Below, piece after piece: positions 51,138-61,515 of a DNA stretch of 64,000 nt (position 1 is its first letter; every line of letters begins with the position of its first letter). Source of the stretch: Pedobacter ginsenosidimutans. Lineage in GTDB: Bacteria; Bacteroidota; Bacteroidia; Sphingobacteriales; Sphingobacteriaceae. The stretch lies in the NCBI RefSeq assembly GCF_001442625.1, contig NZ_LMZQ01000007.1, positions 186,001 through 250,000 of the forward strand, in the 5' to 3' direction. The notes below the pieces were generated by a model. That model ran no database searches. It had not been told where the DNA came from and worked only from the letters and a program-made list of their open reading frames with translations. A program made the position numbers and the translations under genes.

Positions 51138-51222
51138 GGAGAGCTGGCAGAGTGGTCGAATGCGGCAGTCTTGAAAACTGTTGACTGTAACAGGTCCGGG
51201 GGTTCGAATCCCTCGCTCTCCG
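51138..51222 (+). tRNA. tRNA-Ser (anticodon UGA)
   Basis: An 85-base cloverleaf: acceptor arms GGAGAGC and GCTCTCC, D-arm region with TGGCAGAGTGGTCGAATG, anticodon stem GCAGT/ACTGT with loop CTTGAAA, so the anticodon is TGA, a long variable arm as expected for serine, and T-arm GGGGGTTCGAATCCCTC. Discriminator base is G at 51222 and CCA is not encoded (CAC follows). Its 3' end from 51200 is inside the direct repeat that bounds the genomic island. The intact copy lies on the left side of the island. Confidence 0.96.
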
Positions 51223-51375
51223 CACAAATGGCATTAAAGTCCTTAAAAAGCCCGCAAATCGTATGATAGCGGGCTTTTTGCGTTCCTAGGGGTATCATTC
51301 GATTCCTTCACTAACATACCCAAAGTGAAAGATTCGGTGAGTCACCATGAAAAATTCAAATGACCCACCGAAGAC
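51200..51375. repeat. attL-like 176-bp direct repeat (left border of island)
   Basis: This stretch (from GGGTTCGAATCCCTCGC in the tRNA T-arm through the terminator to ACCCACCGA) recurs at 61754-61929 with only two visible differences (51358 A/T and 51373 G/A). It includes the last 23 bases of tRNA-Ser, the downstream terminator and the inverted motif TCGGTGAGTCA ... TGACCCACCGA at 51334-51371. The offset of the copies is 10554 bases. Confidence 0.9.
51245..51279. terminator. rho-independent terminator after tRNA-Ser
   Basis: AAAAAGCCCGC and GCGGGCTTTTT make a perfect 11-bp stem with a 13-base loop, starting 23 bases after the tRNA. The A-rich 5' arm means that it could also act on the opposite strand. 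Confidence 0.85.
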
Positions 51376-51470
51376 GACTTAAACCGTTAGATATCAAGCT
51401 GTTTAGCGATTAAACATCTTGATTTGATTTGCCTGCAAAGTTAGATTTGTTAACCATTAAGGTGAGTACT

Positions 51471-51905
51471 ATGAAAACTAATTTTAGCTTGCTCTTTTAT
51501 TTAAAGAGGCAAAAAAACTATCAATTTGGACCTGTAGCTATCTACATGCGGATTATTGTCAACGGAAAACGGGTGGAAATGACATCCGGAAGATCCTGTG
51601 AACCCAGTCAATGGAATACTGTAAATGGGCCGGAGCAGTGGAAAGAAAGAAGATTCAAAATCCCTCAATGCCTACCTGGATGATCTTCAATTAAGATCCA
51701 TGAGCCCCATCGTCAATTAACACTTCATAATGAAGAAGTCACAGCAATCTCTATCAGAGATAGATTTCTTGGAAAATAAGGAAGCCATCATACTATAATA
51801 GGCGTATTCAAGGAACACAACAGAAAGTTGGAGATCCTCATCGGGTCAGAATATACGAAGGGGACCGCTGAGCGATATCGCACATCATTAAAGCATACTA
51901 TAGAC
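51471..51905 (+). pseudogene. decayed tyrosine integrase of the island
   Basis: Starts with MKTNFSLLFYLKRQKNYQ and continues AIYMRIIVNGKRVEMTSGRS, which is the arm-binding N-terminus of Bacteroidota tyrosine recombinases; an open frame from 51429 to 51683 covers it. Further integrase sequence is found in other frames: SGKKEDSKSLNAYLDDLQL, then HRQLTLHNEEVTAISIRDRF and VFKEHNRKLEILIGSEYTKG, with AERYRTSLKHTIDF at the end. At least two frameshifts and a stop break it. The catalytic domain with the R-H-R-Y residues is missing altogether. It sits right next to attL, the usual place for an island integrase. The 3' border of the remnant is approximate. Confidence 0.75.
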
Positions 51906-52052
51906 TTTAAAACGGCTACCGAATTATTTCTCCGCAATTCTATTTTAAATCCGAACTGCTTGTAAGCGCAACCAAGGATATTTGTGGAGCTTCTCTACAA
52001 GGTTGTGTATTAGACAACTTATTAGTGAACGTTTACTTATAAATCTCTTCTA

Positions 52053-52733
52053 TTATTTGATTACTATTGAAATTTCCTTAAAAGTGTCAACCGTCACCGT
52101 CTGCAATTCACTCACCAGTTTTACTTTGCCGTCTTCACTTTTGAACATTGCCTTAATATGGACTTTTTGAGGTAATTGCATTGCTAGTGACAAGCCTACG
52201 TTATTCGAGGTAAGCGTACATATTGACCCATATCCCACAAGGTCGGGGTCTAATTTTGCCAGTTCTTCACTTGAATAAAAGATCACCTTTGCCCCAGAAA
52301 TAGCCCCGGAGCCCTTGTCTGTGACATTAAGTAATACCCCTTTCATGTTTTTGGTATCCAAATTGGCCATGAATGTGTAACTATTGAGGTCGGCAGAACT
52401 ACCTGTAAAAGTCTGTTCCCCTGCGTAAACTGCCCTGTATTGGTTTGCATCAGTAAATTCTTGCCGATAGCTCAATTTGTACTGGCCACTACCTTCAAGT
52501 CCAGGAAAGCTGAAAACCCCTAATTTATCTGTTAACAAATTAAACTTACTTCCCCTACTGAGATCATTTAGTTCAATTTTTTGATCAGGTAATACCTTAG
52601 GTGGTTCATTTGGAACCAAAATAGATTGAATTTTCGCAACTGCAGTTAGGTCAATCCTCGCTGGAAAATCTTTCTTGCAACTACTAAAAGTTGTAGCCAG
52701 GATGATCAGTATAATGTAATGTTTCAGATCCAT
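52053..52733 (-). CDS. island lipoprotein of unknown function (fourth gene of protease operon)
   Basis: 226 residues with lipobox FSSC in ILIILATTFSSCKKDFPARI, so it is a lipoprotein. The body shows KFNLLTDKLGVFSFPGLEGS, GQYKLSYRQEFTDANQYRAV and ISGAKVIFYSSEELAKLDP, which look like two beta-sandwich (carboxypeptidase-regulatory-like) domains, ending with a basic VKLVSELQTVTVDTFKE. I do not recognise a named family. It lies three bases downstream of the 742-residue gene, the last of a four-gene minus-strand operon. As lipoprotein it could tie the complex to the inner leaflet of the outer membrane. Function is unknown. Confidence 0.75.
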   Translation of the reverse strand: MDLKHYIILIILATTFSSCKKDFPARIDLTAVAKIQSILVPNEPPKVLPDQKIELNDLSRGSKFNLLTDKLGVFSFPGLEGSGQYKLSYRQEFTDANQYRAVYAGEQTFTGSSADLNSYTFMANLDTKNMKGVLLNVTDKGSGAISGAKVIFYSSEELAKLDPDLVGYGSICTLTSNNVGLSLAMQLPQKVHIKAMFKSEDGKVKLVSELQTVTVDTFKEISIVIK

Positions 52734-52736
52734 TGT

Positions 52737-54965
52737 CTATTGTTTTGATTTTGAGGATGATTTTTTGTTCGTTTCAGACTTTAATATTGCGTACGAAAGA
52801 GATATAAAGGCACCTGGACGAAATTGTTTTCTATATTCCAAGGTAGGCTGGGTAGCATATAAATTGCTGCCATAAAGCTCGCTTTTTACTGTACGTAACT
52901 GAGACGCGGCAATCCCGAAAGATATGAGTATGCGGTTATCTATTCCAAAGGACGGCGTCAACCCGAGCATAAACGTAGGCAGTGGTTTTTCTTCTATAGA
53001 GGCGCCAACCCCGAAAGTAAGAGATAATCCGAAGTCGCCACCAAACCGGCGCCCAACGTTAGCGAAAGCACCAAGGCCATAGGGAACGGCTGGGCTCCCA
53101 TTTTCGACCAACCTATAACTGGCATTAGCATCCACTAAATTGCCAGAAGAAGGAACGCTTATCCAGTCATAAGATTTTAAGCTGTTGTTTGCAAACACAT
53201 TCACGAATGGTCCAGAAGAAAAGCTAAAGGTTGTTTTGCTCCTAATAGAGAAATTCAAATTAAATTTATCGTGATAGGTCGGCAGAAAGCCCATTTTAGT
53301 TGCAATGTCAGTATCCCTAGCATTGATATCAATCGTCAACGCTAATTTTTCGCCTTCAGGATAAATCGGTGGTAAGCGGTAGAAGAAGTTTTCTCTGGCA
53401 ATATTTTTATCAAATAGGTAAAGTTTTCTAAGGTCATCTATCGTTGGTAACGCCCCCCTCACTTTATCCATTGCCTGTCTAAAGGGCAGTGAATTTCTTA
53501 GCGTAAGCAGCTCTTCAGAAAGTTTTGTCTTAGCGGCTTTATCACAGGCGAGGCCAAGCTTGCTGAGCTCAGTTTTGAGCGGCGTCAAAATTTTATTGAG
53601 ACTGTCGATTTTGTCCTTTTCTGATTCCTTTAATTTTGAAATATCTTTTGTCAATACCTCAATCTTATCTGCCAGCGCACATGCCGTTTCCATTTTATCA
53701 TAGGTAGCCTGTTTGGCGGTAATTTTTTCATTGAGTTCTACACCACCAGGAACTCCTTTAAGGGTTGTGAGTTCCAGCTGAAGTAATTTATAGTTTATAT
53801 TGGTAAGCTGTTTGGAGTAGTAACTGAACTCCTCAGTAGGCAGGGCTTCGCCACAACATTTTGCCGTTGGACATAACAGGTAAGCTTTAAGCTGATATTC
53901 TAACAATTTATTATAATCGTCCTCAAATTTTTGAAGTTCGTTTATCAATTCACTTGGATCCTCATTTTCATCTTCTCCACCAACTTGATGTTTATCTACT
54001 GTTTTGAGTTTATCGGCAAGGACCCCCGCCAAATTACCTGTCCCGCCAAAATAGCTGCTCCACAATGCTGGTGTTTCTGATTTAAAGGTAATATCATCCA
54101 CTGTAACCTCTACATCATATAAATACCTGTTTATCCCAGCGATTTTGAAACGCAGTAAACGGCGGTCTTTGGCTTTTATGTCCCTGAGATCATTTACAAC
54201 ATAGTAGTCAATTTGTCCCTTTCCCTCATTTCCGACAACAAGTCTTGCCTGGACTAAGAGTTTACATTTGAAATCGTAGATCAGATCCCCGTCTCTATCT
54301 TCGCAGGCCGGGCAGTCTTGATAATCTGCATTATTTAATCTGTCTGCTCGCATCGCCGCCAACAGTTTAGCCTGCTGTTTTTTTTCTTTATTGGTTAATG
54401 GTAGCTTCCCGATAGCGCCAACACGCTGTGACAAGTCATTTAAGTTCGCATTAGTTTTAGAAATTTTACCTTCAAAATCAGCTCGAACTTGGCCGATCTT
54501 TGAGTCAACTTGCGCAGTAGCCATTGCATTAGTTATTGACTCTGCCTTTTCTTCCTTGACGGTTATAGCAATCAAAAAAGGAGTTATATTTCCATAGTTT
54601 ACGGTAAACGAAACTTGATCGCCTGCTGAAAGCTTGCCAGTAATATCCGTTAACGAAAATGAGTTAGTAGACTCCAAAACCCCAGTTTTTTCTTTCAACG
54701 TTATAGACTTGACATTACTAGCCTTGTCCATTATTTGAAGAGTACTTTTATCCAAAAATTGTTTACGTTCACTGATAGAAGGTAATTTATCAAATTTAAT
54801 GTTGATTGGCTGGTTTTCTGAAACCTCACGCTTTACAGGGGCAGTTGCCTCTCCCCAGTTAAGATTTATGGTGGCAGCTTTCTGAGCGTCTGCGTTTAAC
54901 ACACCCAGAAAAAGTGCTAGTATCAGAAAAAAGATGATTTTAGATTTGGCTTTAGCGTTATTCAT
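52737..54965 (-). CDS. large exported coiled-coil/beta-rich protein of the island operon
   Basis: 742 residues. IIFFLILALFLGVLNADA is a signal peptide cleaved near residue 26. Then follows a beta-rich N-part (ATINLNWGEATAPVKREVSE, FSLTDITGKLSAGDQVSFTV), a cysteine-bearing segment with CPACEDRDGD near residue 219, a second cysteine group (CPTAKCCGEA near 368), a long helical region with heptad-like Leu/Ile/Lys (about 390-500), and a C-terminal half of repeated aromatic beta strands (FNLNFSIRSKTTFSFSSGPF, FGLSLTFGVGASIEEKPLPT) that could form a small outer-membrane barrel. I know no family of this composition. It is co-transcribed with the protease gene (2-base gap). Confidence 0.75.
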   Translation of the reverse strand: MNNAKAKSKIIFFLILALFLGVLNADAQKAATINLNWGEATAPVKREVSENQPINIKFDKLPSISERKQFLDKSTLQIMDKASNVKSITLKEKTGVLESTNSFSLTDITGKLSAGDQVSFTVNYGNITPFLIAITVKEEKAESITNAMATAQVDSKIGQVRADFEGKISKTNANLNDLSQRVGAIGKLPLTNKEKKQQAKLLAAMRADRLNNADYQDCPACEDRDGDLIYDFKCKLLVQARLVVGNEGKGQIDYYVVNDLRDIKAKDRRLLRFKIAGINRYLYDVEVTVDDITFKSETPALWSSYFGGTGNLAGVLADKLKTVDKHQVGGEDENEDPSELINELQKFEDDYNKLLEYQLKAYLLCPTAKCCGEALPTEEFSYYSKQLTNINYKLLQLELTTLKGVPGGVELNEKITAKQATYDKMETACALADKIEVLTKDISKLKESEKDKIDSLNKILTPLKTELSKLGLACDKAAKTKLSEELLTLRNSLPFRQAMDKVRGALPTIDDLRKLYLFDKNIARENFFYRLPPIYPEGEKLALTIDINARDTDIATKMGFLPTYHDKFNLNFSIRSKTTFSFSSGPFVNVFANNSLKSYDWISVPSSGNLVDANASYRLVENGSPAVPYGLGAFANVGRRFGGDFGLSLTFGVGASIEEKPLPTFMLGLTPSFGIDNRILISFGIAASQLRTVKSELYGSNLYATQPTLEYRKQFRPGAFISLSYAILKSETNKKSSSKSKQ

Positions 54966-54967
54966 TT

Positions 54968-56185
54968 TTATGTATGGGGTTTTATGGAAAATTTAAATTC
55001 AAGCGCGGCGAAGGGTAGAATAAAAGAGCACCTTTCAATTTCCTTTCCCTTGGTTATGCCTGCGATAATATAACCCACAAGAAAATTATTTTCGGGGTCA
55101 ATTACAGGGGCACCGGAATCACCTTTGTCTGACATGCAACTTGTTTCAATTAAGCCCGACATCACAATGCCTTTACCTAGGTCCCGCCCGGTGGTATGCA
55201 ATGTTCTAAAAGTTCCTACCGAATCCAATGTCTTGGCACCGTATTTTCTTAACACTTTATCTTTATTGAATTTGGTCTTTAGCTCTTTCATTGTATAATA
55301 ACCCGCGAAATTTACTTTGTCAGGTAGTCTATTTGAAAGTTTCGCCTGTCCTATATCTATCAATGCATAATCATAACCAGGACCGTAACCACCCTCCACA
55401 ACAGTTCCACTCAGCAAGCTGGAAACCTCTTGCTTTGTTCTCAAAGGGGATGGAAAGCTCACCTTGCGATTTTGATTATCTAGCGTAAATATCCCGCTTT
55501 TAAATAGCGCGTTACAGGCCACGTGGAAGCAGGCAAGCAGTAAGAGTTGTTCGCCATATTTATCACGCCTTGTAACCAAGCTTGCCCGCGAGCCAAAGCC
55601 TTGGGCAACCCCACCAATCATCTCTGAAAGGCTACCGCCCATCGTGTAATTCGGTCCCTCGTCCGCCTCTATGGCATCGGTTGATTCATGCAATATGATA
55701 TCCCGCATTTTTCTTACATCGGTGGTTAGTGCAAGACCCCGGTGGTTGATTTTTGCCGGGATCGGCCACACTGTATTATCGTCTTTTTCTGACACATAAA
55801 AAACAAGGGAAAGTTCATCTGTGAAAATCTCATTCAAACTTTTATAGCCAACTGCGAGTCCTTTAAATCCCTTACCTCCCTTGGCTGCAAAATCCGCACT
55901 AAGCTCGTTTGCCGCAGTTATGTAAATGTCCAATTGCTGTTCCTGAGTAAACGATGATATCGAAATCGCTGGCTGGAGCAATTCCACTGTCTGCATGATT
56001 CCGCCGCTCCAGTAGAAATTGCCATCTTCGGAACATCGATACCAGATAGCGTTACCTTCAATCATGGTGCCTGTTAAAACATGAGAGATTTCCAAGGTAT
56101 CGCCCGGCTTTCTGTATAAGGGACATTCAGCAGCTATCTGTGCGCTTTTACGGGCGTTGAGGTATTTGCAAACGGTTACTTTCAT
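54968..56185 (-). CDS. trypsin-like serine protease with N-terminal SH3-like domain, no signal peptide
   Basis: 405 residues. N-terminal SH3-like part: LNARKSAQIAAECPLYRKPG, GTMIEGNAIWYRCSEDGNFY, WSGGIMQTV (about 8-66). A trypsin-like fold follows, with His221 in LACFHVACN, Asp272 in GYDYALID and Ser357 in KGDSGAPVID, that is a complete His-Asp-Ser triad with the family GDSG motif. FLVGYIIAG comes after, as in S1 proteases. The N-terminus has no hydrophobic segment, so the protein is predicted cytoplasmic, although its downstream neighbours are exported. It overlaps the upstream membrane-protein gene by four bases. No propeptide was recognised. A stress or defence protease is plausible, but not shown. 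Confidence 0.85.
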   Translation of the reverse strand: MKVTVCKYLNARKSAQIAAECPLYRKPGDTLEISHVLTGTMIEGNAIWYRCSEDGNFYWSGGIMQTVELLQPAISISSFTQEQQLDIYITAANELSADFAAKGGKGFKGLAVGYKSLNEIFTDELSLVFYVSEKDDNTVWPIPAKINHRGLALTTDVRKMRDIILHESTDAIEADEGPNYTMGGSLSEMIGGVAQGFGSRASLVTRRDKYGEQLLLLACFHVACNALFKSGIFTLDNQNRKVSFPSPLRTKQEVSSLLSGTVVEGGYGPGYDYALIDIGQAKLSNRLPDKVNFAGYYTMKELKTKFNKDKVLRKYGAKTLDSVGTFRTLHTTGRDLGKGIVMSGLIETSCMSDKGDSGAPVIDPENNFLVGYIIAGITKGKEIERCSFILPFAALEFKFSIKPHT

Positions 56186-57375
56186 CCTACTCTAGATATA
56201 ATTTCCTCCGAAGGATTTGACGGTGGATTCGAAGCCGCTTCTTTCACTCCTGCTGCCCTCAGGTTGATGAACTTATTGAGTAAGTCAAACCAGAATGCCG
56301 CGCCGAGCGAGATGGCCAGTCCTGTTATAAGCCATCCCAAAAATCTAATCATTGGTTTACTTTCTTGCGGCAATTGAACTATGATGGAGCACCCCGACGA
56401 CTGTTTCTGGAGCATTTGAATTGTTCTCTGATCTAATTTTTTTGCTTTGGAAAACTTAGCAAGGGTATCAAGGATGCCTTGCTTGCAATTGTTTTTGACC
56501 TTATCAAAATCGTAACCTAGGCCGAGTATGAGATTTACCGCTTTGGCATCTGTTTTAAGTGCTCTAATTTCCTTTTGGGTTATGGTATCATTTTTCGAAG
56601 CATTTTCTTCTTGCTGGCTAGCAACGTTACCTTGTACCATTCCCCCATACACCGAAGCCCTGGAGGTGGCAAAATCTGCTAACTGCTCGCGAGCTGTTTT
56701 GCTGTTGATCAGAATTTTACTGATTGCAATCGAATCGATATTGAATATGACAGCTAATGCGAAACCGAGACAGAAAAGGATTTTTTGTGTCTGTTTTTTA
56801 TACCATCCGATGCTCCGATCCATAACAGAATTGAACCAAGTCTCTAAGAAAATTTGAAATTTATTAATATCGCCATTTGAGTTAATGTAGAGCTGTTTGA
56901 GATACCTAATTGTACTTGGCGAAAGGACTACACTGCCTATTTTTCCGTTAAGTAGATTTTCTCGAATTCTATTCATCGGATTTGCTGTATGATCAAAGCC
57001 ATCTCCCCTTAATATATTAATCATTACTTGTGAAAAATCCTTGGGACTTATGTAGGAAGGACGTGCGTTGCTTCGGTTTTCGCCTAGAGTGTTGATCAAA
57101 GGGTCGTCGTAAAAAGCTTTCATCAACGAGCCTTCGGACATCGGACTAAAATAATTACTAAGTCCGGTTAAGCAATCCCAGGGTATGTTAACTAACGAAA
57201 AAGAATTCCTTGGTTTTTTACCGTCCAACATCCCCCTGATGGTTTTCATCAGGTTTCTGCTACGAAGAGAAAACCATTGTGAAACCATTTCTTGCAGAAT
57301 AGTTGCCAATAAACTGTACAGCAAAAATATAAATATAAGCCCTAGGCTAACATCTATAGCAGCATTATCGAACAC
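56182..57375 (-). CDS. three-helix membrane protein of the island operon
   Basis: 397 residues. Helix 1 at about 8-28 (VSLGLIFIFLLYSLLATILQ), a long soluble part, helix 2 at 199-217 (ILFCLGFALAVIFNIDSIA), another soluble part rich in Lys/Glu, then helix 3 at 343-363 (IRFLGWLITGLAISLGAAFW). ETWFNSVMDRSIGWYKKQTQ at 179-198 is a pattern I have seen in a broad family of uncharacterised bacterial membrane proteins. Positive charges after helix 1 (SLRSRN) suggest that residues 30-198 and the C-tail are cytoplasmic and 217-342 periplasmic. First gene of the operon; it overlaps the protease gene by four bases. Role unknown, possibly a membrane platform for the protease. Confidence 0.78.
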   Translation of the reverse strand: MFDNAAIDVSLGLIFIFLLYSLLATILQEMVSQWFSLRSRNLMKTIRGMLDGKKPRNSFSLVNIPWDCLTGLSNYFSPMSEGSLMKAFYDDPLINTLGENRSNARPSYISPKDFSQVMINILRGDGFDHTANPMNRIRENLLNGKIGSVVLSPSTIRYLKQLYINSNGDINKFQIFLETWFNSVMDRSIGWYKKQTQKILFCLGFALAVIFNIDSIAISKILINSKTAREQLADFATSRASVYGGMVQGNVASQQEENASKNDTITQKEIRALKTDAKAVNLILGLGYDFDKVKNNCKQGILDTLAKFSKAKKLDQRTIQMLQKQSSGCSIIVQLPQESKPMIRFLGWLITGLAISLGAAFWFDLLNKFINLRAAGVKEAASNPPSNPSEEIISRVG

Positions 57376-57833
57376 GTGAGTTGTCTGCCTAAATTTGGGT
57401 AAAAACTGTCTTTAAGTGCTGGTTAACTCTGCGGAAAGCAGCTGAGCCTCGATGTAAATGTCTAAGATCGGAAATGGCGGGTTTAATAATGGTATCCATG
57501 AGCGCTTGTTTGGTTTGTTTCGTTAAATCACCGCTTGCAGCCTTTGTAAGCCGCTGGGAACATCATCACATATCTAACTCTAATATAGCCATTTACAAAC
57601 GGCTCACAATACCTATTTTTTGGTATTTTTAATATTTCGCTTAGAGATTTTGAGGTGGACTCTATGTGGGACATAAAAGATACCTGGTTGTTAAGATTAC
57701 CGCTTGCGGAGACAGATTGTTAAAATTCAGTTAAATTTCAAGTGTTGAGTATTACTACACCCTATAACATTTTTTTCAATTCTTAGTCCATACTAAGAAC
57801 AAAAAACTGAAATTTTATGCTTTTTGCACTACT
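57376..57833. other. divergent intergenic region of the island
   Basis: This 458-base gap separates the protease operon (minus) from the regulator (plus). It contains the palindromic operator candidate at 57780-57799 close to the regulator gene. Promoters for both directions must lie here, but I cannot mark a clear pair for either. No gene is supported. Confidence 0.5.
57780..57799. promoter_or_regulatory. palindromic operator candidate before the XRE regulator
   Basis: TTCTTAGT-CCAT-ACTAAGAA is a perfect 8+8 inverted repeat with a four-base spacer, 35 bases before the start of the regulator gene. Its form resembles controller-protein boxes (ACT-AGT type) of restriction-modification loci. 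The likely binder is the encoded XRE protein. Confidence 0.55.
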
Positions 57834-58073
57834 ATGGGAATGAAATCAAACTTTGAGCTTGCCATTGTGGAGAATGTGAAGAGAATCCGTAATCAGCATA
57901 AAAAATATCAGCCCTATATCGCTATGGTGCTGGAAGTTACGGATGGATACATCGGACAAATTGAAAGTGTTCGCTCCGCTAGTATGTATTCCTTTGACCA
58001 GCTTAACAAAATCGCGCAGGAGTTTAATTGTAGTCCCAAGGACTTCATGCCCGCAGAATCCGTCCAAGAATAA
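57834..58073 (+). CDS. XRE-family (Cro/C1-type HTH) regulator
   Basis: 79 residues. NFELAIVENVKRIRNQHKKY, QPYIAMVLEVTDGYIGQIES and SFDQLNKIAQEFNCSPKDFM give the five-helix Cro/C1 layout with the recognition helix near residues 38-46 (DGYIGQIES). No other domain is attached. Small single-domain regulators of this size often act as controller proteins for restriction or toxin-type operons. The palindromic site upstream fits autoregulation. The following genes run in the same direction, so it may control the putative DNA-targeting module. Start ATG 57834 is the first of two close methionines; a start at 57840 is also possible. Confidence 0.82.
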   Translation: MGMKSNFELAIVENVKRIRNQHKKYQPYIAMVLEVTDGYIGQIESVRSASMYSFDQLNKIAQEFNCSPKDFMPAESVQE

Positions 58074-58554
58074 ACCAAATTAGACATGAACCACGCCCTC
58101 CCTCTCTCTTTTTCCATTTTATATAAGCCTTCATTCATTCGGTACTGGCAGATTTATGCCGCGGCAAAAATAAGGCATCGAGAGGAAATCAGCTTTTAAT
58201 GAAATTTTAGATTATATGTTCAAATATATATTTGATAAGTTAAGTATTGCTTCAAAAGAAGCAGTCATCGATGGCAACCATGCCAACATCGATAACTTCA
58301 AGGATTACCTGCATGTTGACCGTGAAGTAGATGCACTATTAGAAAATATTGATTAACATCAATCCAGAGCAAAAACACTGTTCTCCGCTTAATGGCCTGC
58401 TCCTGTACCCGAATTTTATGTGTTGTTTTCCTAAGCTCGGCAGTTTATATTAGCGAAGCAATTGTACCGGTGAGTATGGGTTTTATAATGGGTTAATATT
58501 TTTTTGCCGTTAGGGTTTCGCAATTGGAATAATGAAAATCAAATCGCCTAGATC
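58074..58554. other. spacer between regulator and nuclease-like gene, with a small ORF remnant
   Basis: A 481-base gap holding one short ORF at 58216-58356 and no other supportable gene. It may be where a gene was lost from the module. No repeats were matched. Confidence 0.4.
58216..58356 (+). CDS. small ORF of 46 residues, possible gene remnant
   Basis: ATG at 58216 to TAA at 58354-58356. The peptide starts MFKYIFDKLSIASKEAVID and ends REVDALLENID; it is soluble, mixed acidic, with no signal peptide. It looks like the N-terminus of a larger protein that ends too early, though I cannot name it. In the context of the island it could be the remnant of a lost gene or a short real one. Coding status is uncertain. 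Confidence 0.3.
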   Translation: MFKYIFDKLSIASKEAVIDGNHANIDNFKDYLHVDREVDALLENID

Positions 58555-59466
58555 ATGAGTAATGAACACTACCTAAGGGGCCGCGAAGTTGTGGGCCCCT
58601 GTGAGCTGCTGAGGGCAGTCGAACAGGATACCTGGGCACGTATTGGCTTTACCAGGGAAACCCCTGGTCTTCGGATCATGGAGACTACGATTACCCAAAA
58701 TATCGTTTATGAGCTCCGGCTGCTCAAACATCGATTTGGCCATATTGGATACACCCTTTTTGAGTCTAGAAACGAGAAGGCGAATGGCCACGACTTGCTG
58801 CTGCGCATCCTATCGAGCAAAAACGAGGTCTACACTTATGCTCTGCAGGCCAAGATTATCTACCATAACCTGGGCGATGTTAAAAAGGGAACCCACTTGG
58901 ATGACGGTACCTATCCGCAGTTCAAGCACATGGTGGGCAAAGGTCCCGAGGCGGATTCACAGGTGAACATCCTGTTGGACTATGCAAAAAAAAGGGGTTA
59001 CATCCCGATGTACCTGATGTACAATTATGTACGAAAAAAACGCCCAAAATCTAAAGGCTTAGGTTGCACCGTGGTGGGTGCCCAAAAGATGAAAGACCGT
59101 TTCCCAGACACCTCAGGTAAGGACCTAAGTGATAAGGTCAGGTATAGCCAACTCCATTTTAAACATGCTTTCCCACTTTCTGATCTGGCTTGTATTTTTT
59201 CGGGTCTTGATGACGAATTGATTTTGGAGGCTTCAGGTTTACCGCCGGATTACGCGCTTACAAAAGCGCCTCGCTCTGCTTTGAGAATAGACGAGGAATG
59301 GTTAAAAATGGAGGATGAAAACCGGGTCATGGAATTTATCCAACCTCGGCCCCTATCCACTAACCGGCAGGGATCAAATGAGCTAAATGATACGGTAGCT
59401 ATTCCATCTTCTGGCTTTAACCCAAGATTTCATCTGGAACTGGATCTAAGGAATCGTCATTATTAA
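58555..59466 (+). CDS. putative PD-(D/E)XK-like nuclease (DUF6615-like)
   Basis: 303 residues with no signal peptide or membrane segment. ETTITQNIVYELRLL near 43-57 is followed by YTLFESRNEKANGHDLLLRI (67-86) and YTYALQAKIIYHN (93-105). The order Glu70 ... Asp80 ... Gln98-x-Lys100 matches the E...D...QxK metal-site pattern of PD-(D/E)XK nucleases. QVNILLDYAKKRGYIPMYLM and YNYVRKKRPKSKG come next, with basic residues that could contact DNA. I associate this pattern with the family named DUF6615, from memory and unverified. It is located between the regulator and two DNA glycosylase-like genes, which supports a nucleic-acid role. Confidence 0.6.
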   Translation: MSNEHYLRGREVVGPCELLRAVEQDTWARIGFTRETPGLRIMETTITQNIVYELRLLKHRFGHIGYTLFESRNEKANGHDLLLRILSSKNEVYTYALQAKIIYHNLGDVKKGTHLDDGTYPQFKHMVGKGPEADSQVNILLDYAKKRGYIPMYLMYNYVRKKRPKSKGLGCTVVGAQKMKDRFPDTSGKDLSDKVRYSQLHFKHAFPLSDLACIFSGLDDELILEASGLPPDYALTKAPRSALRIDEEWLKMEDENRVMEFIQPRPLSTNRQGSNELNDTVAIPSSGFNPRFHLELDLRNRHY

Positions 59467-59593
59467 CAAATGAAGGGATAAAGGTTAGTGATACGCAGTA
59501 ACTTTGAGTGTAGTCGATGGCAAGCAGACCAGATGCGGTTTGGGTATTTGGCGCATTATTTTTTAGCTGCGCTAAACCATAAAAAATTTACGA

Positions 59594-60376
59594 ATGAAAT
59601 TACATGAAGCCATTGAGAAGCTTATTCAGCAGGCCGGACAACCTATGGATGCCGGCAAGATCAGCGAAGCATTAAACGCTAATAAGTGGTACCGAAAAGC
59701 AGACGGCACTGTCATTTCAGCCGCCCAAATTAACGCAAGGGTCAAGAATTATCCGCTTATGTTCACGGTTAACCGGTCCGTAAAGCCGATGCTAATTGAT
59801 GTTGTTAGTGAGGCCGTGTCGATCAATCCACGCAGCAAGGTATCCGCTAATCCAAAGATTGAAACATCACATTTAACTGTGCCGACTTCAAGGGTCAAAA
59901 CTTCCTTTGCGCCACTTTTTGATGAGCGGATTCAAATTTTGATACTGGGCACTTTACCCGGTGATGAGTCTCTACGAAAAATGGAATATTATGGACATGC
60001 GCGCAACCGATTCTGGAAAGTGGTCGCGGGCTTAAGCCTGCGGGCGGAGTTAACGGATTATGCGTCTAAGAAGAGCGCACTATTTGGTCTGGGCATCGGG
60101 CTTTGGGACGTGGTACACAGTTCTGAGCGCAAAGGCAGTTTGGATAGTGCGATTCGGGAAGAACAGGTGAATGACCTGGAGAGCTTTATGCACCGGCAAT
60201 CTGATATTTCTCTCATTGCTTTTAACGGAAATAAGGCGCAGGTACTGTATGACAAATATTTTAAGCGCAGGGCAAACATCAGGTATGTGACCTTGCCGAG
60301 CACCAGCCCAGCCAACGCCTCCTGGAATCTGGAACGGTTGTTAAACCAGTGGAGATCCGCCCTAGGAATGATCTGA
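59594..60376 (+). CDS. HARE-HTH / DNA-deoxyinosine glycosylase-like fusion
   Basis: 260 residues. N-terminal HARE-HTH: LHEAIEKLIQQAGQPMDAGK, ISEALNANKWYRKADGTVIS, AAQINARVKNYPLMFTVNRS (about 3-62). After a linker, residues 103-258 form a UDG-superfamily domain: ILILGTLPGDESLRKMEYYG (115-134) with HARNRFW, GIGLWDVVHSSERKGSLDSA, and LPSTSPANA (234-242) as the second motif. The PGDE/NRFW set fits family-6 hypoxanthine-DNA glycosylases that remove deamination products such as deoxyinosine. HARE domains are known with enzymes that act on modified DNA. The fusion suggests recognition of particular bases in DNA. Start at ATG 59594. Confidence 0.85.
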   Translation: MKLHEAIEKLIQQAGQPMDAGKISEALNANKWYRKADGTVISAAQINARVKNYPLMFTVNRSVKPMLIDVVSEAVSINPRSKVSANPKIETSHLTVPTSRVKTSFAPLFDERIQILILGTLPGDESLRKMEYYGHARNRFWKVVAGLSLRAELTDYASKKSALFGLGIGLWDVVHSSERKGSLDSAIREEQVNDLESFMHRQSDISLIAFNGNKAQVLYDKYFKRRANIRYVTLPSTSPANASWNLERLLNQWRSALGMI

Positions 60377-60498
60377 AGCCTTACTTCATTCAAATATGGG
60401 CCGTGATTTATAGGTTAGGGAAGCGAAAGGGTATTTTGAAAAAGATTTTTTTCTTCAGAATTATTTCACTATAATTAAGTAAATCCAAAAATGACGCT

Positions 60499-61515
60499 AT
60501 GCCCTGCCCTCACCGATACCTTGGTTTGCATATTGATGGCCAGCTCTTTCCAGACTGGGAAATCGACTATCTGTTCATTGGGACATTTAATCCGCTATGG
60601 GACCGTCCCGATTTGGTTAATGCAGCCTACTTCTATGGCCGAAGTGCCTACTTTTGGGACGCAGTGAGTATTTTCTTTAAGGATAGACCCTACAGTTATG
60701 CCCGGGATGACCAGCAGGCGATGGTCGATTTTTGTAAACGCCACAAAATCGGTTTTACGGACCTGATTCTTGATATTGAGGATGCAGATTGGGCAAATCC
60801 GGAGCACCGCCAGAGAATTTATTCTGTGTTGGATACGGATCTGGAACAGTTCGATGAGATCGTTTGGAACACGACAGCGATCGAGGCTTTCCTTCAAGAC
60901 AATAAACCGGGGCACGTCTTCTTTACGCTGCTTTCAGGTAATAAAAAATCTATCTTTTCCGTGGAGATGCGAAAGATAGAGCAACAGGCGGCATCGCTAA
61001 AGATTAACTGCAAACGCCTGCACAGCCCAACCGGGGCAAATGTTGGAACGGGTGTTCCGCGTTTGCATCAATTGGTGGAGCGCTGGGATGCGGTCAAGGG
61101 CCTGCCCCAAATAGATTTGAGCCGATACCCTTATGTGCAGGATGAAAAACGGGCCAGGAAAAAGCCTAGCCAGAAAAAGCCCAGGATAAAAACTTATCTG
61201 GAAACCAGTGACAATCCTGAAATTTTGGTGATGGACAGGTATGTACTGTGCATTGAGGCAGGCAAAAAAGTGATCCTGATTGACCGAAGGAATAATATGA
61301 TGCTTAAAGCATTGACCGTTCTTCGGGATACCATTGTTCCGCACATCAAACTTGCCTATGGCATTGAAGTTGACCTCCACCATAGCAGCAAGGGCCGAGG
61401 TGAAAAAAACACGAGAGTTTTGGGGCAAGAGGTTTTTAGAATATTATCCGGTAAAAACCCCTTGGCGTTAGCCGAAGAAGGTTTGGAAGCGCTGCAGGTT
61501 AACACTGGATATTAA
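60499..61515 (+). CDS. second UDG-superfamily protein with unknown C-terminal domain
   Basis: 338 residues. The N-terminal 200 residues have UDG-like motifs: DYLFIGTFNPLWDRPDL (23-39), YFYGRSAYFWDAVS (44-57), KIGFTDLILDIE, EIVWNTTAIEAFL and RLHSPTGANVGTG (173-185). The active-site motifs differ from the previous gene (GTFNP versus GTLPG; LHSPTGAN versus LPSTSPAN), so it is a different branch of the superfamily. A basic linker (RARKKPSQKKPRIK at 218-231) joins a C-terminal domain (239-338) that I do not recognise, containing YVLCIEAGKKVILIDRRNNM. It might be a DNA- or protein-binding module. The gene follows the fusion gene by 122 bases. Confidence 0.7.
   Translation: MPCPHRYLGLHIDGQLFPDWEIDYLFIGTFNPLWDRPDLVNAAYFYGRSAYFWDAVSIFFKDRPYSYARDDQQAMVDFCKRHKIGFTDLILDIEDADWANPEHRQRIYSVLDTDLEQFDEIVWNTTAIEAFLQDNKPGHVFFTLLSGNKKSIFSVEMRKIEQQAASLKINCKRLHSPTGANVGTGVPRLHQLVERWDAVKGLPQIDLSRYPYVQDEKRARKKPSQKKPRIKTYLETSDNPEILVMDRYVLCIEAGKKVILIDRRNNMMLKALTVLRDTIVPHIKLAYGIEVDLHHSSKGRGEKNTRVLGQEVFRILSGKNPLALAEEGLEALQVNTGY

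Follow-up and report, generated by a model that had tools for sequence, protein, structure and literature searches.

Bacterial gasdermin operons encode a cytosolic protease beside a membrane-acting partner, a layout resembled by the four-gene operon described here. It lies in a 64,000-nucleotide stretch of the genome of Pedobacter ginsenosidimutans (contig NZ_LMZQ01000007.1, positions 186,001 to 250,000; hereafter the window) and encodes, in order, a three-helix membrane protein of a family that we call A1, a trypsin-like protease without a signal peptide, an exported protein of 742 amino acids and a lipoprotein. The two differ in that A1 is an integral three-helix protein and not a gasdermin, and none of the four operon proteins matched a gasdermin in Pfam or PADLOC at E values of up to 1. 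Interchangeable effectors are likewise a feature of the trypsin/NucA 'System 3' and the vWA-MoxR (VMAP) conflict systems (Kaur et al., 2020; PMC7159879). These contain a NucA nuclease, or vWA and MoxR proteins, whereas no nuclease family, MoxR ATPase or vWA protein was found among the four operon proteins, and the A1 operons add the three-helix family, exported partners and wall or lipid hydrolases as alternatives. A trypsin-like protease is also shared with the nuclease-protease pairs of antiviral systems (PMC12799240), such proteases having been recurrently acquired by mobile defence systems; those pairs use a metallo-beta-lactamase (MBL)-fold nuclease, whereas A1 operons pair the protease with a membrane protein and Pfam found no MBL family among the four operon proteins.

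The type 10 secretion and lysis cassettes (PMC10847048, PMC9527704) likewise combine a membrane protein, a signal-less hydrolase and envelope partners. Neither a holin match nor a phage homolog turned up for the A1 proteins searched, and the window enzyme differs in being a protease rather than a wall enzyme; signal-less peptidoglycan hydrolases do occur in the A1 operons of relatives, by Pfam in L024, L063, L067, L086 and L190 and by similarity or annotation in L088, L092 and L093 (L-numbers are labels of loci or genomes of relatives, L004 being the Pedobacter aquatilis locus). The likeness between a two-component spanin and the exported protein plus lipoprotein of the window is one of predicted localisation only. 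The phosphorothioation-dependent restriction system Dnd (DndFGH) is a neighbour of the operon in P. aquatilis, and a 5' remnant of dndF is present in the window. Among the trypsin-containing, effector-swapping or membrane-enzyme systems treated in the consulted parts of PMC7159879, PMC12419801 and PMC12799240, none has the components of the A1 operons, and no description of this gene set was found in the open-access literature, in agreement with a first-pass annotation of the window that knew of no such system. Our analysis tentatively suggests that the operon is a trans-envelope module in which a swappable cytosolic hydrolase is docked at the membrane, accompanied by exported partners and triggered by an envelope event.

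Protease fusions and recurrence of the gene set

The membrane protein had been proposed as the only visible link between the signal-less protease and its exported partners, and natural fusions bear this out. In three relatives (L074, L175 and L193) the tail of the A1 protein runs on into a trypsin-like domain, recognised by similarity between L074 and L175 (E 4e-14) and between L175 and L193 (E 5e-7) and by an aligned catalytic triad, and in each the next gene encodes an exported protein of the EXP3 family. A short form of the fusion occurs in L091, where a protein of 489 amino acids contains three A1 segments in order followed by a C-terminal trypsin-like domain (trypsin profile, E 9e-29); run without filters, the A2 profile matched its A1 part (E 2.6e-11 for a single sequence), the first segment alone being insignificant. 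Because of these four fusions, the link between A1 and the protease is stronger than adjacency. Averages of positive charge over 66 family sequences predict that the N-terminus of A1 lies outside and the C-terminus inside, the lysine plus arginine fraction being 0.17/0.19 at the ends of loop 1, 0.135/0.086 at the ends of loop 2 and 0.226 after the third transmembrane helix; from this topology, the fused trypsin-like domain is predicted to be cytoplasmic.

Whether the gene order recurs in other genomes, a question raised by the first-pass annotation, is also answered by L091. The fusion gene is followed after 8 bp by a 685-amino-acid homolog of the 742-amino-acid protein (E 2e-55, cysteine clusters kept) and, after a further 12 bp, by a 337-amino-acid lipoprotein-like protein. 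Judged from sequence, this is the gene order of the window operon with the first two genes fused, and the complete set recurs in another family of the class. Across 395 genomes of the phylum, L091 holds the only full-length relative of the 742-amino-acid protein besides that of the own genome, six other matches being weak and covering the C-terminal part. In the C-terminus of the window's 742-amino-acid protein hydropathy alternates over 9 segments compared with 3.8 in shuffled sequences (0 of 200 as high); the alternation is marginal in L021, L065, L067, L078 and L193 and absent from nine other exported proteins including the L091 homolog, for which reason an outer-membrane barrel formed by the beta-rich C-terminus is only suggested as a possibility.

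EXP3, present in 15 of the 395 genomes, is a different exported family, whose gene follows that of the hydrolase at subtilase loci and the A1 gene at loci with a fusion. Profile comparison with the 742-amino-acid family gave 7% probability over the C-terminal part only, and kinship is not established. At one locus lacking A1 (L162, 4239-8276) the EXP3 protein adjoins a caspase-domain (Peptidase_C14) protein with a signal-like N-terminus. On another contig of the own genome (L159, contig C3, 6833-10879), a 967-amino-acid EXP3-type protein is followed by a 379-amino-acid lipoprotein-like protein, the A1 gene being absent, and in L163 and L164 EXP3 adjoins exported or lipoprotein-like neighbours similar in size to those in L159.

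Exchange of the hydrolase in A1 operons

A1 proteins are sparse and widely scattered. They were found in 10 of 148 relatives, in 30 of 395 genomes of the phylum by profile search and, with a larger profile, in 29 of 345 genomes of the class, 8 of which had been seen before, some of the matches being partial. Twelve plasmid records, mostly from Proteobacteria and Cyanobacteria, also carry the family (hosts: Rhizobium, Agrobacterium, Caballeronia, Paracoccus, Vitreoscilla, Hymenobacter, Nostoc and Kovacikia). Of ten members compared with Pfam, at most one matched any given family (best E 8e-4).

The enzymes encoded in A1 operons comprise trypsins, subtilases, papains, patatins, amidohydrolases, peptidoglycan amidases and lysozymes. 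Pfam recognised Peptidase_S8 in L020, L064, L065, L067, L077, L078 and L177, Glyco_hydro_25 in L067, Amidase_2 in L024, L063, L086 and L190, Peptidase_C1 in L028, L073 and L074, Patatin in L021, L069 and L173, and Amidohydro_2 in L025, L027 and L079; on plasmids, existing annotation places amidases with A1 in Caballeronia and Hymenobacter, and a patatin gene in Rhizobium NXC14 ends 11 bases upstream of A1. For counting, genes in relatives' genomes were called by a simple open reading frame (ORF) script that set some starts wrongly (e.g. L064, L081, L095, L096), neighbours shorter than 90 amino acids were excluded from adjacency counts, and hydrolases were labelled from seeds drawn from the first sample, L029 and the Caballeronia plasmid, so that the first-sample and plasmid counts are partly circular. 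A seed-labelled hydrolase was present in the operon at 22 of 39 A1 loci of the first sample (24 of 93 adjacent genes against 2 of 402 others) and at 2 of 9 plasmid loci; in L094 and L101 Pfam identified additional neighbours that look like hydrolases. A cleaner test is the second sample, made up of 23 loci from 21 new genomes and retrieved after the idea had formed, although its neighbours were inspected before counting; here 13 of 21 A1 loci had a hydrolase (13 of 57 adjacent genes against 1 of 163 others; Fisher p 8.7e-8). The seed search missed the patatin of L173, found by Pfam, and leaves the fused trypsins of L175 and L193 uncounted. Five loci with no A1 hit at the script threshold (L090, L091, L188, L195, L100) were dropped before counting, and L029 and L030, fetched for other reasons, were left out; L182, L191 and L194 were retained though truncated at contig ends, the first sample counts both the window and L004 despite their being near-copies, and the loci include further close relatives (L021/L062, L071/L073, L081/L083, L086/L088).

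In a tree of 61 of the 66 A1 sequences (with near-copies taken out and some partner labels assigned by hand), partner types cluster: they require 21 changes, compared with 35.5 after shuffling, and none of 200 shuffles was as low. Amidohydrolases form one clade, and partners change within a second group; 24 of the 58 inner branches are open and the window's own position has no starred support. Between the sister A1 proteins of L020 and L021 (Shimodaira-Hasegawa-like approximate likelihood ratio test, SH-aLRT, 100) the partner has been swapped, a subtilase in the former and a patatin in the latter. The partners also lack signal-like starts: all 44 labelled hydrolases had N-terminal hydropathy scores of 1.88 or less, compared with 2.19 or more in 23 of 27 exported-family rows (the remaining four are doubtful starts or fragments), the score being a crude measure and not a signal-peptide predictor. 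Catalytic residues, judged by eye, are kept in the 8 subtilase and 3 papain partners that were aligned.

Further neighbours were noted at several A1 loci. The patatin version of the operon (L021, 9126-15956, and L062) includes an extra 96-amino-acid protein, a 383-amino-acid exported protein and a 1,339-amino-acid protein with multiple transmembrane segments, which the N-terminus of a 1,404-amino-acid protein in L187 (10403-14617) resembles by eye. In the cyanobacterium Kovacikia (L101, 4330-8152) a tandem A1 pair lies downstream of an Rv2525c-like glycoside-hydrolase-like gene, and on Rhizobium, Agrobacterium and Paracoccus plasmids (L095, L096, L097) a vanadium-dependent haloperoxidase gene and similar hypothetical genes lie upstream of A1. 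A1 adjoins contractile-injection-system genes in L071 (3131-8435; Pvc16_N, sheath and gp19-like tube, identified by Pfam in L071 only) and in L073, where a papain-like protease is encoded on its other side.

The window operon and its probably mobile setting

The features of the window are collected in Table 1. ORF coordinates agree with the four closely packed minus-strand genes first described, which are separated by one 4-base overlap and then by gaps of 2 and 3 bases. Hydropathy of the window's A1 protein peaks at residues 9, 199 and 345.

Table 1. Coordinates of the operon and neighbouring features in the window
Feature	Position	Strand	Basis or detail
A1 three-helix inner-membrane protein, 397 amino acids, GTG start	56182..57375	-	ORF call, family profile, hydropathy
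Trypsin-like protease, 405 amino acids, without signal peptide	54968..56185	-	ORF call, Pfam, alignments
Protease stretch with triad codons	55115..55525	-	H221 55523-55525, D272 55370-55372, S357 55115-55117
SH3-like N-terminal module of protease, about residues 1-80	55946..56185	-	Alignment of 10 operon hydrolases
Exported protein, 742 amino acids: signal-peptide-like start, helical/coiled-coil middle, two Cys clusters, beta-rich C-terminus	52737..54965	-	
Lipoprotein, 226 amino acids, lipobox TTFSSC	52053..52733	-	Lipobox spotted by eye
tRNA-Ser (tga), left island edge	51138..51223	+	tRNA search
Integrase-like ORF, 84 amino acids, probably a remnant	51429..51683	+	Pfam, Arm-DNA-bind_5 E 1.2e-8
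Block colinear with P. aquatilis	51907..58375	.	6,474 aligned positions, 97.3% identity; single blastn match of window to L004
Helix-turn-helix (HTH) protein, 79 amino acids, divergent from operon	57834..58073	+	L004 copy: PADLOC HTH_VI 7e-7, Control_protein 1e-6
dndF remnant, first 46 codons, then divergence	58216..58353	+	91% identity to residues 1-46 of intact L004 gene

The protease has the His-Asp-Ser triad of a trypsin-like (S1-type) peptidase in HV, D.A and GDSG contexts (H221 in LLACFHVACN, D272 in YGPGYDYALIDI and S357 in DKGDSGAPV; residues checked), and the His, Asp and GDSG columns line up with those of four related proteases. The complete triad and the missing signal peptide reported by the first-pass annotation therefore both hold, the crude N-terminal hydropathy score being 0.13 for the protease, whose start is not hydrophobic, compared with 3.21 for the 742-amino-acid protein; nothing pointed to an exported protease, which would have spoken against the proposed arrangement. 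Similarity to known families is weak: Pfam Trypsin_2 matched at E 0.033, under the cut-off, a profile of the four related proteases matched at E 9.7e-7, and among PDB sequences, which yielded no useful relative for the operon proteins searched, the top hit of the protease was a weak one, an alkaline serine protease at E 0.075. Membership of HtrA/DegS is not indicated, with a signal-like start absent and no PDZ domain in Pfam. The N-terminal module is common to subtilases and a GH25 lysozyme in relatives' A1 operons, and a W-rich motif like WY....G.(F/Y)WSGG was seen by eye in 9 of 10 aligned operon hydrolases; we infer the label 'SH3-like', since Pfam gives no SH3 match for the window protease. 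The protease itself is seldom found: of 148 relatives only 3 have it, namely the own genome and two with partial matches. In one of these two (L003/L020) the match is confined to the N-terminal module of a protein that continues as a subtilase; its gene stands immediately downstream of an A1 relative, which is how the A1 family came to notice.

The signal-peptide-like segment of the 742-amino-acid protein terminates in ADAQ, and its two cysteine clusters (C218/C221/C234 and C365/C370/C371) are kept in one distant homolog; together with the lipobox of the fourth protein, this upholds the earlier description of an exported protein and a lipoprotein. The lipoprotein matched CarboxypepD_reg weakly (E 3.3e-4, under the cut-off). 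No operon protein passed the Pfam or NCBIfam cut-offs, PADLOC gave nothing significant for the four (sole match E 0.09) and none matched a family of known function, the kind of match that would have spoken against the first interpretation. Searches of plasmids by tblastn with the protease and the 742-amino-acid protein gave no matches. Structure prediction without alignments, for the protease and the last 231 residues of the 742-amino-acid protein, gave a mean predicted local distance difference test score of 30 and was discarded.

The block colinear with P. aquatilis contains the operon, the divergent HTH gene and the start of dndF. It was probably transferred as one unit, because its flanks have no match to P. 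aquatilis within the 18 kb compared. The 742-amino-acid protein has a 98% identical counterpart in P. aquatilis CECT 7114, and in a codon comparison the four genes are equal in length in the two genomes and free of in-frame stops, with ratios of non-synonymous to synonymous substitution rates (dN/dS) of 0.13, 0.12, 0.18 and 0.25 (each gene having 11.5-26.5 synonymous changes). P. aquatilis retains intact copies of both dndF and dndG (L004 1587-4750; PADLOC DndF 2.5e-119, DndG 4.5e-92), and no further dndF copy was found in the own genome; by sequence, the phosphorothioation-dependent restriction module beside the window operon is decayed. The HTH gene may belong to the dnd genes rather than to the operon, whose proteins, unlike the DndF and DndG neighbours in L004, matched no Dnd model in PADLOC.

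About 4.4 kb past the operon in L004 (15294-18185) lies a gene for a 963-amino-acid ATPase that matches several defence ATPase models (PADLOC NsnB 4e-40). On the plus strand of the window, three genes at 58555-61515 encode a DUF6615 protein (Pfam E 1e-7), a DNA-deoxyinosine glycosylase (TIGR04274, E 6e-45) and a 338-amino-acid protein without significant match, possibly a set related to DNA modification. A gene matching the PADLOC candidate-defence model HEC-05 lies about 1.1 kb upstream of the L091 operon, and genes for type I restriction occur in the vicinity of L160 and L169, two exported-protein loci that lack A1. These defence-related neighbours, like the Dnd genes beside the P. aquatilis operon, were selected by eye and PADLOC was applied to chosen genes only, and we therefore make no claim of defence-island enrichment.

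A proposed docked hydrolase and its alternatives

On the favoured reading, A1 would be an inner-membrane dock with its N-terminus outside and its C-terminus inside, and the protease would sit on the cytoplasmic side of A1, a slot that in relatives would be filled by a C-terminal domain of A1 itself or by another signal-less hydrolase. These two steps are supported by the topology averages, the fusions, operon linkage and the missing signal-like starts. The 742-amino-acid protein and the lipoprotein would be exported partners in the periplasm or outer membrane, as their signal-like starts and the beta-rich C-termini suggest. Together with the periplasmic loop of A1 they might sense an event at the envelope (entry of a phage, an attack or a rupture), upon which the docked hydrolase would be released or switched on and would harm the cell's own proteins or, in other members of the family, the wall or lipids; such a trigger and self-damage are suggested by the swapping of partners, by mobility and sparse occurrence, and by the Dnd neighbours. 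A defence role, one of those first proposed from the island location, is a possibility, its main hint being the neighbouring Dnd genes.

Several observations weigh against this reading. Pfam sees no trypsin domain in the A1 tails of L074 and L193, and Trypsin_2 is weak in that of L175 (E 0.014). The topology derives from charge counts. At 17 of 39 A1 loci in the first sample and 8 of 21 in the second, the operon has no seed-labelled hydrolase, the latter eight including one with a patatin by Pfam (L173), two with a fused trypsin (L175, L193) and three cut by contig ends. The A1 gene is missing from the fetched stretch in 8 of the 15 EXP3 genomes, one of which (the own genome) has A1 elsewhere, and the exported component can therefore occur apart from A1. 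The possibility, raised at the outset, that each gene might recur without the others thus meets a mixed outcome: the set does recur, but A1 also occurs with other hydrolases or with none recognised, and the exported component without a nearby A1. Amidohydrolases, the largest partner class, look metabolic and are grouped in one clade, and so are compatible with housekeeping. Signal-less wall-lytic partners would moreover have to cross the membrane, which a purely cytosolic dock leaves unexplained.

Such partners would be accommodated by a dedicated export or lysis machine, in which A1 acts as a large holin or translocator and, with the barrel-like exported protein, carries signal-less hydrolase cargo across the envelope as in type 10 secretion. 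Wall enzymes that lack signal-like starts account for several partners (Amidase_2, GH25, and CHAP with peptidoglycan-binding domains), the inner-membrane, exported and lipoprotein components resemble a holin/endolysin/spanin set, and the contractile injection systems beside A1 in L071 and L073 are cargo that might need lysis for release. However, no A1 relatives were found in viral contigs, two A1 proteins had no match among 50,697 phage records, and 26 members matched no holin family in PHROGs, although holins are too diverse for a clean negative. The loop of about 160 amino acids between the first two transmembrane helices is unlike known holins, amidohydrolases and patatins would be odd cargo, and the trypsin-like domain covalently fused to A1 in four genomes could not be released there without cleavage. 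We consider this explanation unlikely.

Quite unlikely, in our view, is a housekeeping or stress-signalling protease, with A1 sensing the state of the envelope and the tethered cytosolic protease cleaving a regulator without killing. The tethering, the exported partners and the low dN/dS agree with it, as does a PAS-LuxR type regulator near the L020 operon (Pfam), with similar-looking genes near L021 and L062, but the sparse distribution of A1, its plasmid copies and the replacement of the protease by lipases or by hydrolases of the wall are ill-suited to a conserved cascade. An effector-immunity pair, with the hydrolase as an antibacterial effector aimed at other cells and A1 as its membrane immunity protein, is very improbable, since fusion of an immunity protein to an active effector is unusual, delivery genes were noticed near L071 and L073 only, in the course of no systematic search, and amidohydrolases are atypical effectors, even though amidases, patatins and proteases are typical classes of them and A1 copies stand in tandem in L101.

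A wider form of the docked-hydrolase reading, which we regard as doubtful, is that A1 marks a new class of envelope self-destruct systems in several phyla, with a dock, exported sensors and a replaceable cytosolic warhead, be it a protease, a phospholipase, a wall hydrolase or an amidohydrolase, fired at envelope breach against phages or rivals, of which the window would hold the protease version on a mobile island beside Dnd. Found here in Bacteroidota, Proteobacteria and Cyanobacteria and absent from Pfam, the A1 family seems to serve at least seven classes of hydrolase as a shared chassis. The natural fusions make an inner-face protease coupled to exported partners directly testable, and were the function of one A1 member understood, roles could be predicted for many 'hypothetical' operons carried by plasmids and islands.

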